This document shows, piece after piece, positions 25,391 through 54,892 of a DNA stretch of 64,000 nucleotides. The stretch comes from Bacteroidota bacterium. GTDB taxonomy: Bacteria > Bacteroidota > Bacteroidia > Bacteroidales > B39-G9. The DNA lies in the NCBI GenBank assembly GCA_015222055.1, contig JADFUR010000039.1, forward strand, positions 1 to 64,000. The letters are read 5' to 3'. The notes below the pieces were generated by a model, which worked only from the letters and a program-made list of their open reading frames with translations, was not told the DNA's origin and searched no databases. The position numbers and the translations under genes were made by a program. The stretch's first letter is position 1; every line of letters begins with the position of its first letter.

Positions 25391-28300
25391 ATGATTATTA
25401 AAAATTCACATGGACTTATTTTTGAATTTCTGAATAATGGTTCAGTAAAAAGTATTGAAGTTGACCCAATAAGAATAAGTCTCGAATCAAGCTCGCCTTT
25501 TTCATTACTGGGGGCAAACATTTTTTTAAGAAAAAGAACAAAGCCTTACGAATATATTGCTTTAACAGGTTCTGAGAGCAATAGTGTTTTTAGCATTGTC
25601 GACGATAGATTTATGACCAAAGGCAGTTGGGCTAATCTTGATTATTTATGTTGTTTGCAACTATCAAAAAAAAGTCTAAGCTGGCAATGGAGTGTAGAAG
25701 TTAAAAATTTATCTGATAAAGATGTTGAGCTTGATTTAATTTACGTTCAAGATGCTGGACTGAAGTCAATAAATGAAGGATTAATCAACGAATATTATGT
25801 AAGTCAATATCTTGAAAGATTAATCCTAAAAGATAAAAAGTATGGTTCTGTAATATGCTGTCGTCAAAACATGCAGGAATTTGTTGGATATCCCTGGCTA
25901 ATGATGGCTTGTAAAAATGGAGCTGTAGCAGCAAGTGTTGATGGAATGCAATTTTATGGTAAAACATTCAGGGAAACCAGAATCCCTGAGGGATTGAAAT
26001 CAGATAAGCTTGGTGGTGAATATTCAGGGGAATCTTCAGTGCTTGCATTGCAGCAAAAACCTTTCAGCATAGCATCCGGGCAGATTAGTAACAGTGTTTT
26101 TGTTGCCACTTATTTTCCTAATCATCCAAAAGCAACGTCTGTTGATGATTTGAAAAGTCTTCCTGATCTTATGCTCGAATTTGATGATAAGATGACAATT
26201 GCTAGTAAGAAAAATTGGAAACTACCTATCAAAAATTTATTTAATACATCTCCATTTTTACCTGTTAACGATTTAAATGATAAAGAACTTAATTTGTTTT
26301 TTGGTAAAGAGAGACGTCATTATGAAAAGGAAAATGGTAAATTGTTATCGTTTTTTAGTGAGGAAAATAATCATGTTGTTTTGCGAGCCAAGGAAATCAT
26401 GGTGGATAGACCACATGGACATATTATGCAAGCTAAAACAGGACTCTTGCCTAATGAAAATATTGTTTCTACTAGCTCAAACGCTTATGGGGTATTCAAT
26501 TCACATCTAACACAAGGTAATACAAATTTTAATATTTTATTATCAGTTTGCAATAGTCAGTTCAATCTAGCACCGGAAACAGGTCAGCGTATTTTTGTGA
26601 AATTAAATAAGCAATATTATTTACTTGGTATTCCTTCTGCTTTTGAGATTGGTTTAAATCATTGCCGTTGGATATACAAATTTGGTGATTATTGTTTTCA
26701 AATCAGGACGTGGACCTCAAAATCTGCCCCACAGGTTAATCTTGATATTAAAGAGCTTTCGGGTAATAAAGTAGATTTGTTAATTACTCATCATTTTGAC
26801 AAAGCTAATAATTGGAATATTATTTCGGGCAATTCATCTGGTGAATATATTGCAAAACCGAAAGTTAACAGCATGATCTCTGGAAAATTTTCTAAGGCAC
26901 AGTTCCGAATAATTGTTCAGAGTAAAAATGCTAAATATAAAGCTTGTAATGATGAGGTATTATATAGCAATACTAAAAAAGAAGCAAACGAATTATTTGT
27001 CTTTGATGTGAATAAAACATCAAATTTTTGTATGAGTTTTATTGGTGAAGTATGTAATCGTGTAAACGAAATTGAAATTAATAATTCAGATAATCAATGG
27101 CTTTCAGATACTCGTGAAGGTCAGAATTTTTGGAATAAATTAAGCCTAAATTTATCTCTCAATGGAGAGCAAAAAGATGTTTCTGCTATCAATGAAATAT
27201 TGCCATGGTATGGAATGAATGCACTTACACATTTTTTAACACCCTATGGATTAGAACAATTTAGTGGAGCTGCTTGGGGTACTCGTGATGTTTCTCAAGG
27301 TCCAATCGATTTGTTGCTTAGTTTAGAAAAGTATGCAGAAGCAAGAAAATTATTACAAATTATATTCTCGAACCAGAATCCCGATGGCGGATGGCCACAG
27401 TGGTGGATGTTCGATAGTTATACAAATATTAGGGCTCAAGATGCTCATGGTGATGTTGCTTACTGGTGTATTATAGCCCTTAGTAAGTATATTAAAGTTA
27501 CTGGAGACCTGAATATTATTGATGATTTTTTACCTTATTACAATGAAAATGCTCTTGACAATAATGAAAAAACACCACTTAGCGAACATGTAGAACGTCT
27601 TATTAAAATGATTGTTGATTCGTTTATCCCTGGCACTGCTTTGGTTCCCTATGGCGGTGGCGACTGGAACGATTCATTGCAACCCGTAAGTAAAGAATTG
27701 GCTAAGCGTATGATATCAAGCTGGACTGTTGAAATGAATTACCAGGCTTTTGATCAATATAAAGAGGTATATAAGATTACCGGTAATACAGAAAAAGCGA
27801 ATGAGTTAAAAGTGATTTGTGAAAAGATTAAAGCCGATTTTAATAAATATTTAATAAAGGATGGCGTGGTTGCAGGATATGGTCTGATTGAAGATAATGG
27901 CAGTATCAGCGTTTTGCTTCATCCTACAGACCAAAAAACTGGTATTCATTACAGTATTTTACCAATGAATCGTGGTATTATAAGTGGAATTTTTTCAAAA
28001 GAACAAGTTATTCAACATCAGGAATATACCGAACAACATCTTAAAGGACCCGATGGTGCTCGTTTAATGGATCATCCGCTCGAATACAGAGGCGGAATTC
28101 AAACTATTTTTCAAAGAGCAGAAAGTAGCACTTTTTTTGGACGTGAGATTGGACTTATGTATGTACATGAGCATATCCGTTATGCAGAATCACTTGCAAT
28201 TACAGGTAAAGCAGATGCTTTTGTGAAAGCACTTCGACAAGCAATTCCGGTTGATTACAAGGATATTGTACCATGTGGAGATGTTCGACAATCAAATTGT

Positions 28301-28735
28301 TACTACAGCAGTTCTGATGTCGTTTTTAAAAATCGTTACGATGCTTATAACCGCTACGATGAAATTAAAACGGGAAAGATTACTCTAAGAGGTGGTTGGA
28401 GAGTTTATTCAAGTGGTCCCGGCATTTATATTGGGATTATTATTTCACGTTTAATAGGTTTGCGTACTGCTTTTGAAAATACAATTTTAGATCCCGTAAT
28501 TTCACATTCATTAAATAATTTTTCAGCAACAATAGATTATTTGGGGCATAATTTAACTTTTATTTATGAAGTAAGAAATGATTGTTTTAGCCCAAAAGAA
28601 ATTATTATTAACGATAAAAAGCTTAATTTTAAATATGAGGATAATCAGTATCGTAAAGGAGGTGCTGTTATTTTAACCAGTCAATTTTTATCTATGGCAG
28701 ATAAAAAAAATAATATTATCAAGATAATACTATAA
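25391..28735 (+). CDS. GH94 enzyme, probable 1,2-beta-oligoglucan phosphorylase
   Basis: 1114 residues, no signal peptide. The length is essentially that of characterised 1,2-beta-oligoglucan phosphorylases (about 1113 residues), larger than cellobiose phosphorylase. The C-terminal (alpha/alpha)6 barrel carries GLEQFSGAAWGTRDVSQGPID, FSNQNPDGGWPQWWMFDS, AQDAHGDVAYWCI and the general-acid segment YGGGDWNDSLQPV with Asp at residue 758, then HPTDQKTGIHYSILPMNRG. Expected reaction: phosphorolysis of beta-1,2-glucan oligosaccharides in the cytoplasm, giving alpha-glucose 1-phosphate and a shortened chain. The ATG at 25391 follows the GH35 TAG without a gap, so the two are translationally linked. 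It is the last gene of the PUL. Confidence 0.9.
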   Translation: MIIKNSHGLIFEFLNNGSVKSIEVDPIRISLESSSPFSLLGANIFLRKRTKPYEYIALTGSESNSVFSIVDDRFMTKGSWANLDYLCCLQLSKKSLSWQWSVEVKNLSDKDVELDLIYVQDAGLKSINEGLINEYYVSQYLERLILKDKKYGSVICCRQNMQEFVGYPWLMMACKNGAVAASVDGMQFYGKTFRETRIPEGLKSDKLGGEYSGESSVLALQQKPFSIASGQISNSVFVATYFPNHPKATSVDDLKSLPDLMLEFDDKMTIASKKNWKLPIKNLFNTSPFLPVNDLNDKELNLFFGKERRHYEKENGKLLSFFSEENNHVVLRAKEIMVDRPHGHIMQAKTGLLPNENIVSTSSNAYGVFNSHLTQGNTNFNILLSVCNSQFNLAPETGQRIFVKLNKQYYLLGIPSAFEIGLNHCRWIYKFGDYCFQIRTWTSKSAPQVNLDIKELSGNKVDLLITHHFDKANNWNIISGNSSGEYIAKPKVNSMISGKFSKAQFRIIVQSKNAKYKACNDEVLYSNTKKEANELFVFDVNKTSNFCMSFIGEVCNRVNEIEINNSDNQWLSDTREGQNFWNKLSLNLSLNGEQKDVSAINEILPWYGMNALTHFLTPYGLEQFSGAAWGTRDVSQGPIDLLLSLEKYAEARKLLQIIFSNQNPDGGWPQWWMFDSYTNIRAQDAHGDVAYWCIIALSKYIKVTGDLNIIDDFLPYYNENALDNNEKTPLSEHVERLIKMIVDSFIPGTALVPYGGGDWNDSLQPVSKELAKRMISSWTVEMNYQAFDQYKEVYKITGNTEKANELKVICEKIKADFNKYLIKDGVVAGYGLIEDNGSISVLLHPTDQKTGIHYSILPMNRGIISGIFSKEQVIQHQEYTEQHLKGPDGARLMDHPLEYRGGIQTIFQRAESSTFFGREIGLMYVHEHIRYAESLAITGKADAFVKALRQAIPVDYKDIVPCGDVRQSNCYYSSSDVVFKNRYDAYNRYDEIKTGKITLRGGWRVYSSGPGIYIGIIISRLIGLRTAFENTILDPVISHSLNNFSATIDYLGHNLTFIYEVRNDCFSPKEIIINDKKLNFKYEDNQYRKGGAVILTSQFLSMADKKNNIIKIIL

Positions 28736-28741
28736 AGATTG

Positions 28742-28985
28742 TGTCTATTAAGCCTTTTTTTTTGGTATGTCGGGTATGGTATTTATTTCGCAGGGTGTAA
28801 GTCCCGGCATGTGTTGGGTTGATAGAAAATATTAGTGATTGGCAAGGGTGTTGTGGATGACTGCAAATCTGAAAGAAGCATTAGCAAATTTGAAGTTTTG
28901 ATGCCCAGAAATCAGATATAAGGCTTACTTGGGAGGTTACCCGAGCCAAGGGTTGGGAACGCCCAAATATCAATCGTAATCCACC
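28742..28985 (+). mobile_element. Group II intron fragment (domain I region only, no maturase)
   Basis: The 263 bases between two gene ends carry, in order, a GTGTC-like start, GCAGGGTGTAAGTCCC (28792-28807), GGCAAGGGTGTTGTGGAT, ATCTGAAAGAAGC, CAGAAATCAGATATAAGGC and two compact hairpins (GGGAGGTTACCC; TTGGGAACGCCCAA). This series is the conserved 5' domain I text of bacterial group II introns that encode an LtrA-type reverse transcriptase. The region is far more GC-rich than its surroundings. No reverse-transcriptase frame and no domain V hairpin follow; the TPR regulator gene ends at 28999 instead. I read it as a truncated relic inserted at the end of the PUL. Confidence 0.75.
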
Positions 28986-28998
28986 TACCTACTTGGTT

Positions 28999-30687
28999 CT
29001 AAATATTTTCTATAAAATTTTTAAAATTTTCTTTACTCGAAAGATTAAATTTACATTTAAGTCTATATTTATAATTATTTACACTTTTTTCTGATATATT
29101 AAGTATATGACCAATTTCTTTAGAAGAAAGTTCTAATCTTATCATAGCAGCCAAATTTAAATCTTTCTTTTTTAAATCAGGAAATTTTTCTTTTAATTTA
29201 TAATAAAAAGTATCTGATAATTTTTGTACCTGTAAAAATATTTTTTCTCTATTGCTACTCTCTTCAAAAGAATGATAAACTATATTTAAACTTTCATTTA
29301 TAACTTTAAGATCTTTATCAGAAACTGAATTTTTCTTTAATTTTTTAAGATTTAATTTTAATTTATTAAAATATTTATCTCTTAATGAAATGTGTAAAGC
29401 AAAATTTTTAAGTTCATTTTTTTGAAACTCTAATTCTTTTTCCTTGATTTTTCCTTGATTTTTTAAAATTTTATGTTCTAATAATAAACTATCTTTTTTT
29501 AATCTATCACTTTTCGATTTCATTCTTTGCCATAAAAAAAGCAATGCTACTATAATAATAATTGAAATTAAAAGTATTATACTTATAATATACTTGCTTT
29601 TTTCTTTATTTCTTTGAATTCTATTAGATGCTTTCCATTTATCAAATTTTATTTGCATTTCTAATTTAGAAATTTGTTTAATATTTTGCTTTGCTTTTAT
29701 ACTATCATGACATATTAAATATTTATTTAGATAAATATATGCATTCTTAAAATCATTAGATTCTTTGTAAGAAGAATTTAAACTAGAATATACTTTTTCT
29801 GCTATTTCAATAAATCCATATTTATTAACAATATCTTCAGCTAAACTCATATATTCAAAATATTGTTTTTTATTTTTTAATGTTTTTTGATAAAACAGTG
29901 CTTTATTATAATATATTGATAAAAGCATTTTATTTAATACTAAATGTTTTTTGTCTTTTTTTAAATATTTTTTACACAATTTTTCAGCCTTATTATAAAA
30001 GTATAAAGCAGAATCTTTAAAATTTACTCTATCACATAAAGTTCCATAATTATTTAAAAGAAGTAAATAACTATTTTTACTATTTTTATCAAGGTTCTCT
30101 TTATTAGCATCTAAAATTTTTAATGATTTTCTATTATAATATAAAGACGAATCCAAATTACCTAATTTGTTATGTACTACAGCAAGATTAGTATACAAAA
30201 AAGCAATTTTAACAGAATCTTTATTATTAAGGCTCATATTAATACGCATATTAATATACTTATGAGCTTCTTTAAATTTACCTATTTTAAAATATATTGC
30301 ACCTATATTATTTATGCACCTTGCCTTACTTTTTTTTAAATTTATATTAAACGGATTCTTATTTAATAAATTATTATATAAATTTTTAGCTTTTTCTAAA
30401 AATGTCAATGCTTTTGAATATTCTGAATTTTCTATATATATAGAAGAAATTTGTTCATAAATATATGCAATTTGTTCATTATCACATCTTTGTTCTGCTT
30501 CAATTTTAACTTTATGAGCCAATATTAATGCTTCCGATGGATCATAGCTAATTAATGAATCAATAAGTTTGCATTTATCTTTAATATTTGTTGAATCAAA
30601 TATTTTAAAAATAGAATCTGTATTTGAAAATAAAGGAATTATTTCAACAAAAAATAATAAAAATATTATTAAAGATTTTTTTTTCAT
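28999..30687 (-). CDS. TPR-containing membrane regulator with LuxR-like C-terminal HTH
   Basis: 562 residues. Signal peptide (about 1-22), then TPR-like helices at about 30-340 (ARCINNIGAIYFKIGKFKEAHKYI, AVVHNKLGNLDSSLYYNRKS). One transmembrane helix lies at about 362-385 (YIISIILLISIIIIVALLFLW), then a Lys/Glu-rich coiled coil. The HTH at about 500-555 is LELSSKEIGHILNISEKSVNNYKYRLK, clearly related to the HTH of the triple-Y protein at 4956. No kinase or receiver domain is present. It should sense something through its periplasmic TPRs and bind DNA from the membrane. It is divergent from the Asp-box/C25 peptidase genes, which are its most likely targets (inference). Confidence 0.85.
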   Translation of the reverse strand: MKKKSLIIFLLFFVEIIPLFSNTDSIFKIFDSTNIKDKCKLIDSLISYDPSEALILAHKVKIEAEQRCDNEQIAYIYEQISSIYIENSEYSKALTFLEKAKNLYNNLLNKNPFNINLKKSKARCINNIGAIYFKIGKFKEAHKYINMRINMSLNNKDSVKIAFLYTNLAVVHNKLGNLDSSLYYNRKSLKILDANKENLDKNSKNSYLLLLNNYGTLCDRVNFKDSALYFYNKAEKLCKKYLKKDKKHLVLNKMLLSIYYNKALFYQKTLKNKKQYFEYMSLAEDIVNKYGFIEIAEKVYSSLNSSYKESNDFKNAYIYLNKYLICHDSIKAKQNIKQISKLEMQIKFDKWKASNRIQRNKEKSKYIISIILLISIIIIVALLFLWQRMKSKSDRLKKDSLLLEHKILKNQGKIKEKELEFQKNELKNFALHISLRDKYFNKLKLNLKKLKKNSVSDKDLKVINESLNIVYHSFEESSNREKIFLQVQKLSDTFYYKLKEKFPDLKKKDLNLAAMIRLELSSKEIGHILNISEKSVNNYKYRLKCKFNLSSKENFKNFIENI

Positions 30688-31062
30688 ATTTTTTTATATA
30701 GCTGTTACAATTTTATTTAATCTATGTAAACGTTTAGCTTTCGCTTAAACTGATATTAAGTATTCTGTTTTTTATATTATTTTTGAAAAACATTTATGCC
30801 TTTTATAAAAAAAATATTTTTATATGAGAGTTAATATTTAACTTATACAATGAAGTAAAATATTTTATTAGAGATAATTATTTATTTGTAATAAAAAAAT
30901 TATCCGAATTCATAATTTCCTGCAAAAATAGAATGTTTCTTCTCATAAAGAAATATTTACACACATTTATTTATGTTTATTGTAAATATTATGGTTACAT
31001 AATTTATAATGAATAGTTACTATTTGGTTATATATTAAAATAGTTTATAACTATATCATTTA

Positions 31063-31070
31063 TAAATTTG
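31063..31070 (+). promoter_or_regulatory. Candidate -7 box of the propeller-protein gene
   Basis: TAAATTTG matches the Bacteroidota -7 consensus TAnnTTTG and lies 27 bases before the ATG at 31098. About 20 bases upstream there is GTTT rather than TTTG, a weak -33. The rest of the 410-base divergent gap (30688-31097) is very AT-rich, and I see no further gene or RNA in it. A second match, TATTTTTG on the minus strand (30930-30923), could serve the TPR regulator but would leave a leader of over 200 bases. Confidence 0.4.
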
Positions 31071-31097
31071 TCGAAATTATAAACCAAAAAAAATATT

Positions 31098-34000
31098 ATG
31101 AAAAAAATTTTTACACTAAGTGTAATGGCAATTTTTCTATTTAATATTGTCTTTGCTCAACCAAAAAACAAAAGGTCTATTTTTAAAAAAGAGGTTTTCG
31201 AAAAAGTTAAAATTGGAGAAAAATCTAAAATAGATAATATTTCAAAAGCAAAAGCAAATGAAAATGCTATAGGACCTTTTGGAGGTAAAATAACACAAAG
31301 TATTGTTTGTCCTGATGATCCTAATATTGTTATTGTATCAGGAGAAAGAGGTTTGTACAAAAGTATTGACGCTGGTGCTAATTGGTCACAATTAGATATA
31401 CCTGGACGCGAATGCTTAGGAATTACTTTTTCTAATTCTGTTATTTATGCTTTTTTTAAAACAGAAAATTTTTATAGATCAACTGACTTTGGAGAAACAT
31501 GGGAAAATTTACATTTTGGATTCCCAACAGAATATTATCCTGGAATTGGAAAAATTTTAATCGATCCTACTGATAATAATTCTTTTATAGTTGGTTTTGG
31601 TAGTCATGCAGAAGAACATCTTATTTATAAAGCTAAATATGATGAAGCTACTAGTTTATGTACATGGACACATATTACAACTCCAGAAGCTATTGGTGAA
31701 AAATACGTTAAAGATATGTGTTATGATATGTCTAAACCTAATGATATTTATGTAACCTTTGCAGAAGATAATTATCAAGCTGAAATTTATGTTTCCAGAG
31801 ATAATGGAGATACTTTTACTTCTACTACTAATAATATGCCTACTAATTATGCATTAACTAGCATTTCTGCAAATAATTCTGTTGTTTATGTTGCTGGTGG
31901 TTATGCTTTTGCTAGTGGCGAAGTTGGAGTTTATAAAAGTGCTGATGGTGGTGCTAATTGGGCAGATGTTTCTGAAGATTTTCCTAAAAAAATATGCTAT
32001 AGTGTTGCTATTGACCCTTCTAATCCTCAAAAAATTTATGCAGGTTCTGACGGCTGGGGAATGTATGTTTCTGAAGATGCTGGAGCAACTTGGAACTATG
32101 ACGTAAGCGGTACTAGAAACACTTCTATACTTTCAATTAATTTTGATCCTACTAATTTTTCTAATATATATATAACTGATGCATCTAAAGGTGTTTTAAA
32201 AAGTACTGATGGTGGTGCAACTTTCACTAACTCTAGTAATGGTATTGGCGGAACTAGTGTAAATGATATTAATGTAAATCCTGCTAATACTCAACAAATT
32301 GTTGCTGCTGCTCCTGGTGATTATCAAGGTGGTAACTTATATATTTCTAACGATTTTGGTAATTCTTGGAATATTGCTAACCTTCCTGCTTTAACATTAA
32401 ATTGGGCAGATTTCGATATTGATGGTAATATGTATGTTTGGTCTCAAGGTCCAGGTTGGAATGGTGACGATGGTCTTTATAAATCTGTTGACAATGGAGA
32501 AAATTGGGAAAATCTTGGTCCTAACCCTACCCCTGTTAATCTTGATGACAGAATTGCGACTATTACTTTTTCTAAAAACGATGCTAAGAAAATTTACATG
32601 GGAGGAACTCCATGGGTAGGAAAAGAAGCTAGAATTTACAAAACTATTAATGGTGGCGAATCTTGGGATAAAATATATTCTTTTGAAAGTGAAACCTTAC
32701 GAAGAAGCATTTCTAAAGTATGTGTTAGCGGTGATAACGACCAATTTATTTATGCTATTTATTCAGAAACTGACGATGATTATAATACAACTTGCGGTAT
32801 ATTATTTAGCAATGATGGTGGTGACACTTGGTCTGAAAAAAAACCTGATTTTTTAACTATTCACGCTTCTTACACTGTTCCTCCTTTATGTGTTCTTGCT
32901 GATGGTAAAACTTTATATTCTGCAGCTGGAGATCCTGAAACTAGAAAATTTAATTTATATTGTTCTAAAGATTCAGGAGATAACTGGGAAAAAATTTGCA
33001 GTGTTGATGAGAAATACGAAGAAATTAAAGATATAGTTGTAAAAGCTGAAGATGAAGATATTATTTATCTTTTAACTTCTGGAGGCGATAATTGCTTAAA
33101 ATATTCTACTGACAGAGGTAATACTTGGAGTGAAATGGGAGGCGATATTTATGCTTACCAATTATCAGAAATTGTTAATGTTAATGGTGCTGATGTTATT
33201 CTTGGTGGTGGTAGTGGTGGTAGCTATAAATTTAATGTTGCTCGTAAACGCCCTATTAATTTAGCTACTGAAAGTTTTGATGATAAAATTTCTCTTACTT
33301 GGGAAGCTCCTACAAATACTTCAGATGTTACTGCTTACAACGTTTATCGTAACGATAAAAAAATTAATACTAGCGAACTTACGGAATTATCTTATGATGA
33401 CTTAAATGTTGAATCTGGTATTTATTCTTATTATATTACTGCTCTTTATAATGATATTGAGTCTGGTGCTTCAGAAAAAGTTAAAGTTATTTATAAATCT
33501 CCTGAATTAAATTTAGATGTTGAAAAAATAGCTGTTGAAATTAATCCTGAACAAACTAAATTAGAAAGCTTTGAGCTTAATAACTCTGGTAATGCTGTTC
33601 TTAATTATACTTTTAGTATTACTGATGAAAAATACTATAACGAAAAAATCAATCAAAGTGAATTAACTGACAAAGGTGTTTATAGCTATAATATGGATGA
33701 TTTATATCCAGATTATACTTCTTTAGCTTCTGATGATTTTGAAGTTGCTGAAGGAAAAACTTTAAATATTTCTGCTGTTAAAGTATTTGGTGTTGCTAAA
33801 TATGATGATTCTGTTTTCGACAAATTAAATATTTATTTCTTTAATGACGATAATGGAAAACCTGGCGAAAGTGTTAAAGAATTTCTTAACGCTGATGCTA
33901 ATTATAGCAATGGCGAAATTACAGCTTCTTTACCAGAAGAAATAAATTTTGAAAGTGGTAAATATTGGTTCTCTGCTGAAATTCCTAATAACACTTATGG

Positions 34001-45502: not shown

Positions 45503-45572
45503 TAATCCGAAGTTATTTAACAAAGGTTGTGCTCAAATAATAAAAGCTACGGATTGCAAATCCGTAGCTGCA
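45503..45572 (+). repeat. Two-hairpin dispersed repeat, copy 2 (left hairpin degraded)
   Basis: AGCTACGGATT (45545-45555), loop GCA, AATCCGTAGCT (45559-45569) is a perfect 11-bp stem equal to the second hairpin of family A, followed by GCATGAG. AATCCGAAGTTATT at 45504-45517 is the remaining right arm of the first hairpin. It lies just after the hldD terminator and before the end of the histidine kinase gene. Confidence 0.65.
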
Positions 45573-45586
45573 TGAGTTAGAGTATT

Positions 45587-51893: not shown

Positions 51894-51930
51894 TTAACAA
51901 GTTAAAAATTCATAAATTGTTTCAATCTCA

Positions 51931-52014
51931 GCTCTTTCGGATTTGTAATTCGAAAGTTATTAATAAAATTTAAGCTCAAATTTATAAGCTACGGATTATA
52001 AATCCTTAGCAGCG
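51931..52014 (+). repeat. Two-hairpin dispersed repeat, copy 3
   Basis: GCTCTTTCGGATTTGTAATT then CGAAAG forms the first hairpin (51934-51956). After a spacer of about 30 bases, GCTACGGATTATAAATCCTTAGC (51988-52010) forms the second, then AGCG. It lies between the aminotransferase-like gene and gmhB. Confidence 0.75.
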
Positions 52015-52049
52015 TTAACAATTAACAATTAACAATTAATAATTAATAA
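52014..52049. repeat. Tandem AACAATT/AATAATT repeat over the gmhB stop
   Basis: TTAACAA repeated three times and then two TTAATAA-type variants run without interruption from the edge of repeat copy 3 into the last codons of gmhB (KKIINY plus stop). The gmhB C-terminus is therefore partly made of this short repeat. Confidence 0.6.
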
Positions 52050-54550: not shown

Positions 54551-54744
54551 TGAGTTTTTAAGTTAATAGATTCCATATAGTGCATGCACGAAAATTCTAA
54601 AATATCGAATATTTATGCAATACAGCTTATTTTATGGATTGAATATATTGTTAAATGGTTATTCTGCATATTATTTATATTTCAACAATTTAACAATTTG
54701 ATGAAAATTTGAAACAATTTTTATTTTGCAATATCAATAATTCC

Positions 54745-54834
54745 GCTCTTTCGGATTTGTAATCCGAAAGTTATAAAAAATAAAATTAACAACTTAAATA
54801 ATAATAAGCTACGGATTACAAATCCGAAGCAGCG
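54745..54834 (+). repeat. Two-hairpin dispersed repeat, copy 5 (best preserved)
   Basis: GCTCTTTCGGATTTGTAATCC continuing to GAAAG (54745-54770) has a perfect 10-bp stem. After a spacer of 37 bases, GCTACGGATTACAAATCCGAAGC (54808-54830) and AGCG follow. The core of the second hairpin (GGATTACAAATCC) is the reverse complement of the first (GGATTTGTAATCC), so the unit is two inverted copies of one hairpin. It sits in the 342-base gap between the macro-domain gene and pheT; the rest of that gap shows nothing else. Confidence 0.8.
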
Positions 54835-54892
54835 TGAGAACTGATTACAGCGTTTTCTTTCAAACACTATATACTTTCAACTTTTTTTTTAT

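Follow-up and report, generated by a model that had tools for sequence, protein, structure and literature searches.

Group II introns canonically begin with 5′ GUGYG and end with 3′ AY, and their domain V is the catalytic element required for splicing and reverse splicing. Insertion behind terminators was reportedly described by Robart and others in 2007. Class C (IIC) introns, which are without an endonuclease domain, insert behind intrinsic terminators according to the relevant sections of three papers (PMC4424553, PMC8919778, PMC3522654), and a section of one of them places the g6, U1 and U2 types near class C, in part also behind terminators (PMC8919778). The majority of group II intron copies in bacteria are stated in a passage of PMC4424553 to be truncated or inactivated, and 55 distinct group II intron fragments are given for the Enterobacteriales in a passage of PMC3522654. 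Bacterial introns without an open reading frame (ORF-less introns) retain a working ribozyme, are rare and nearly always have a related reverse transcriptase (RT) in the same genome, as summarized in part of PMC4424553.

Here, we analysed a 64-kb window, meaning the whole stretch of DNA under study, and conclude that positions 28765-28997 very probably hold the remnant of a dead group II intron of class C type, as present in Bacteroidales and their relatives, which has lost ~1,680 nt internally. With class C introns such as B.h.I1 the remnant shares a domain I that matches RF02001, and the RT-maturase of its relatives, which stand behind terminators, is closest to the GsI-IIC RT. In contrast to class C introns, the remnant has neither domains II-V nor an RT, and its subfamily begins with GTATG in place of GTGYG. 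Compared with the fragmented group II introns of bacteria, it keeps both termini and has lost the middle. It resembles ORF-less introns in having no RT gene between its two ends but differs from them in the absence of domain V and in that no intact RT was found in its own genome.

Extent, ends and deletion junction

In an Rfam covariance-model search of the 64-kb window, the sole gathering-level match was RF02001 (group-II-D1D4-3) at 28851-29029 on the + strand (41.7 bits, E 4.7e-05, gathering score 32), which bears out the group II intron domain I text recognized by the first-pass annotation. A permissive Rfam search of 28400-31200 gave no match to domain V (RF00029) up to E 10, in agreement with the absence of domain V claimed earlier, and yielded three other matches, all with E 0.96 or worse. 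With none of these at gathering level in the window, assignment of the segment to another structured RNA, an outcome for which the first-pass annotation had allowed, was ruled out. Because the likeness of the remnant to domain I of its relatives stops at ~28979 in the alignments, the last 50 bases of the RF02001 match (to 29029) are not domain I; the part of domain I that matches both RF02001 and the relatives is 28851-28979 (+).

The 5′ end of the intron is GTATG at 28765-28769 (+), as the start GTATGTCGGGYATGG is common to relatives, among which the flanks upstream of GTATGTCGGGYATGG vary. The remnant start at 28765 is preceded by a T9 run (28755-28763) and then one G. The interval annotated earlier, 28742-28985, overlaps the intron, but its first part, 28742-28764, is flank and lies outside it. 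Because less closely related introns from this order have GTGTG (L147) or GTGCG (L146) at the place of GTATG, the latter appears to be this subfamily's variant of the canonical GTGYG.

Aligned to its relatives, the remnant tracks domain I to TCAATCGTAA (28979) and then continues in the terminal 18 nt of domain VI, up to 28997. The text across the junction, TCAATCGTAATCCACCTACCTACTTGGT, consists of domain I to GTAA followed by the domain VI tail, as read in the assembled contig. The junction GTAA (28976-28979, +) occurs at both break points in the full-length relatives L095 and L190, in which the domain I site TCAAYCGTAA lies at offset 206-207, and because a further relative (L010) has GTAATCC in domain I, a repeat of 4 to 7 nt may have stood at the junction. 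We estimate that ~1,680 nt are missing because the remnant has 233 nt, compared with 1,913 nt in L095 and 1,914 nt in L190 (genome G233).

The domain VI 3′ arm and intron 3′ end of the remnant, TACCTACTTGGT (28980-28997, +), correspond to TACCTACTCGAT in most relatives; in the full-length ones, TACCTACTCGAT follows a terminal domain VI hairpin (GGGGGAGTAATCCCCC in L095). The 3′ end was set at 28997, a placement by comparison that could be off by one base, because the relatives have YRAT and one T in common and then diverge. The remnant ends in GT, and its relatives have AT at that place. Searched in the genome (3,752,272 bases) with at most 3 mismatches allowed, the pattern GTAATYCCNNTACCTACTYGRTT gave a single match, which lies at 28976-28998 and has 1 mismatch, and a reversed GTAATYCCNNTACCTACTYGRTT control pattern gave 0 matches. 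Because the match lies right where the homology to domain I stops, a chance match to the 3′ end is an unreasonable reading.

These results revise the earlier description of a truncated intron, since the alignment and the 3′-end pattern show that both termini survive. A simple 3′ truncation at the border of the neighbouring regulator gene, by insertion or deletion between two accessory loci, would explain why domain V and the RT are absent and would fit the change in composition at 29000, but the intron's own 3′ terminus is present and joined to domain I, and the regulator gene is uncut. The joined terminus together with the single genome match of the 3′-end pattern led us to rule this account out as highly improbable. 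An intron gutted in this manner looks 3′-truncated when the domain I model alone is used; on the combined basis of RF02001, the alignments to relatives and the 3′-end pattern, 28765-28997 (+) is an internally deleted class C type group II intron of 233 nt with both termini kept.

Intron family and short copies

The full-length relative L095 encodes within the intron a protein of 470 aa, in which RVT_1 and the maturase domain GIIM are the only Pfam matches, consistent with the earlier assignment of the segment to an RT-bearing family. The best PDB match of this protein was the GsI-IIC RT (372 bits), followed at a distance by LtrA (IIA; 144 bits) and 6me0 (135 bits). Because the L095 RT-maturase is nearest to the GsI-IIC RT, the family is probably class C/IIC or close to it. 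At the RNA level, L095 passes Rfam thresholds for RF02001 (119.9 bits), RF01998 and RF00029 (43.1 bits), and L190 passes those for RF02001 and RF01998; RF00029 gave no gathering-level match in L190, L100, L011 or L038. G233 has a protein 78% identical to the L095 RT, in an open frame of 475.

The remnant segment was matched in at least 15 of 295 genomes of the order, its own included, a count that is a lower bound because scoring was limited to 2 candidates per genome; within the same scope, the closest match was in G233 (82%). Several Bacteroidales MAGs are among the named records listed with 5′ ends of this kind. A scan of genome contigs with the 5′-end pattern returned at least 120 stretches, mostly chance matches in coding DNA, and a filter selected those resembling introns; these form no census, and as all carry the chosen 5′ end, copies without it are hidden. 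In the alignment of the matches, from which those spanning under ~180 query bases were dropped, 12 other rows agree throughout at 89 columns, and the remnant differs from them at 11 of these. Ten of those 12 rows depart from 0 to 5 columns, and the remaining copies, L167 (10/99) and L169 (11/100), are as worn as the remnant, so that drift is not unique to it.

The genome of the remnant has little left of the family's protein. PF00078 gave no RT match there at E 0.01 (0/1 genomes), and the L095 protein as query found one RT remnant of 33 residues with 2 stops on contig C102; an RT-maturase for the remnant was thus found neither in cis nor, with these two queries, as an intact RT of the L095 kind elsewhere in the genome. 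The absence of a maturase gene from the locus, claimed earlier, therefore stands. A second 5′ end of the same family, matched over 47 bases, lies near a contig end on contig C24. In this stretch (L002, 1508-1720), the family 5′ end stands behind a clear terminator stem-loop and the family text is lost after ~50 nt; it is followed by reverse-strand coding text that we take to be transposase-like. A different group II intron is located on contig C104 (L008, 1501-2098, -; RF00029 64.4 bits, RF01999 71.2 bits), for which PF00078 likewise gave no RT match in this genome.

Short copies with both ends were also found among the relatives, namely L038 (266 nt), L168/L011 (459 nt) and L100 (638 nt). Ten copies with both ends were listed in total; the remnant is absent from this list because its tail departs from the search expression, and its 233 nt were taken from the coordinates. 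On contig C165 of G087, we observed three short ORF-less copies (L155, L156 and L157, near 64080, 108403 and 105835) of 294, 294 and 283 nt, whose identities to the query copy are 100, 92 and 81%. These three have one common internal deletion and retain both ends, domain V and a portion of domain I; L155 passes Rfam thresholds for RF02001 (44.8 bits) and RF00029 (43.6 bits). They have ~45 nt of 3′ flank in common but not the 5′ flank, and this common 3′ flank is unexplained by plain intron insertion. The nearest RT in G087 is 39% identical to the L095 RT. With at most 2 candidates per genome, the G087 short form had some match in at least 89 of 393 genomes of the order, and its full 331-base query was covered in G087 only.

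The G087 set is possibly a short form that has spread without an RT of its own. In a wider reading that we consider unlikely, class C type introns of Bacteroidales would shed forms of <300 nt with both termini that spread without their own RT in the manner of MITEs or SINEs, and the remnant would be a small decayed member of these. The evidence for such a spread is the G087 set, with three places on one contig and one common deletion, and the remnant adds to it only its size and its two ends.

For the remnant itself, we consider it very unlikely that it was a miniature non-autonomous intron that moved in its deleted form with help in trans. Such an origin would suit a copy that has kept both termini, and it has parallels in the common deletion of the G087 forms and in the other short copies with both ends. 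However, the remnant is without domain V, which is needed for reverse splicing, no intact RT of the L095 kind was found in its genome, and its junction occurs in no other matched copy in the 295 genomes (at most 2 candidates per genome), as alignments other than its own end by query position 226 of 242. The last of these results also rules out a short form common to relatives and means that conservation of exactly this fragment elsewhere, the second outcome for which the first-pass annotation had allowed, was not observed in the same scope. Least likely of all is that the remnant would have persisted in the role of a functional non-coding RNA or a bidirectional barrier to transcription, as its position between two convergent genes and a domain I that is still recognisable over much of its length might suggest, because its 233-nt form was likewise not found elsewhere in these genomes, conserved columns have drifted and the consensus scan detected no terminator-like site inside it.

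Insertion site and neighbouring genes

We compared 29 distinct insertion sites among the matches listed, chosen by a filter that partly required a T run and from which rows with fewer than 50 bases upstream were dropped. A stem-loop (minimum 5 pairs, including 2 G-C) is located just upstream in 28 of 28 other sites, including L002 from the same genome and three from G087, and is lacking at the site of the remnant; in the shuffle control, in which the last 10 bases were kept, the count was 94 of 580. No stem was found before the T9 run of the remnant's 5′ flank (28755-28763, +): an RNA fold of 28700-28757 gave nothing (z-score 0.26), and a consensus scan gave one terminator-like site, at 28646-28667, which is inside the upstream gene and does not adjoin the T run. 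That no stem-loop precedes the T run counts against our account of the remnant, for which insertion behind a terminator is putative; the T9 run probably represents the tail of such a terminator. Since the stem-loop of the 28 other sites is missing and T9 remains, the left side of the site may have been altered. Insertion of the PUL into the terminator hairpin gained no support from a search of the window for the missing 5′ arm, which with at most 3 mismatches matched only the site itself.

By domain search, the upstream gene (25391-28735, +) encodes a glycoside phosphorylase with SOGP/GH94 domains and a complete C-terminus and is the last gene of the PUL. The convergent gene downstream (28999-30687, -) encodes a TPR/LuxR-type regulator, whose LuxR/GerE domain was matched at profile positions 17-50 of 57. 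The regulator stop codon (28999-29001, -) is one base past the intron end at 28997. The break supposed earlier at the end of the regulator gene is the intron's own 3′ end, and for that reason the coincidence is no evidence for a cut on the regulator side. Such proximity is what an insertion into the space between convergent genes would produce. The claim that an insertion or deletion shaped the boundary is corrected accordingly: the edge at the regulator shows no sign of such a cut.

In favour of the boundary claim are the possibly altered left flank and a composition step at 29000, where GC falls from 0.351 (28000-28999) to 0.178 (29000-29999). The GC of the regulator gene (28999-30687) is near 0.18, against values of 0.30-0.37 in most of the preceding PUL. 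The step indicates that the base content of the regulator differs from that of the PUL, and a recent joining of the loci is neither proven nor excluded by it. Among 6 family genomes, the glycoside phosphorylase gene had a match in its own genome only (1/6), and the regulator had matches in all (6/6), the best outside its own genome being 35% identical over part of its length. Neither a full-length-intron allele nor an empty-site allele was found in these 6 genomes, in which the left gene was matched only in the genome of the remnant. Elsewhere in the window, several intergenic places (775-804, 45542-45573, 51928-52015 and 54733-54845) carry short palindromic repeats of related sequence around TTTCGGATTTGTAATCCGAAAG and GCTACGGATTACAAATCCG, in direct and inverted order.

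Proposed history and meaning

We propose that an intron of ~1.9 kb with an RT-maturase inserted behind a terminator between the two convergent genes. The position behind terminators is that of the relatives, and insertion would have proceeded by reverse splicing and reverse transcription, a mechanism taken from the class C literature. A deletion of ~1,680 nt between the GTAA of domain I and the GTAA of the domain VI loop would then have taken out all of domain I beyond the break, together with domains II-V, the RT gene and the 5′ arm of domain VI. The alignment shows this junction; the event behind it may have been recombination or slippage at the short repeat. Because domain V is absent, the remnant is incapable of splicing or movement and would have drifted afterwards to become the present spacer DNA between two genes, which is without evident function.

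The remnant is ordinary decayed mobile DNA and constitutes no new system; as a genomic fossil, it has small functional import. If the G087 forms had indeed spread without an RT of their own, it would mean that very short non-autonomous group II introns exist in bacteria, which would bear on how these introns shed their RT.
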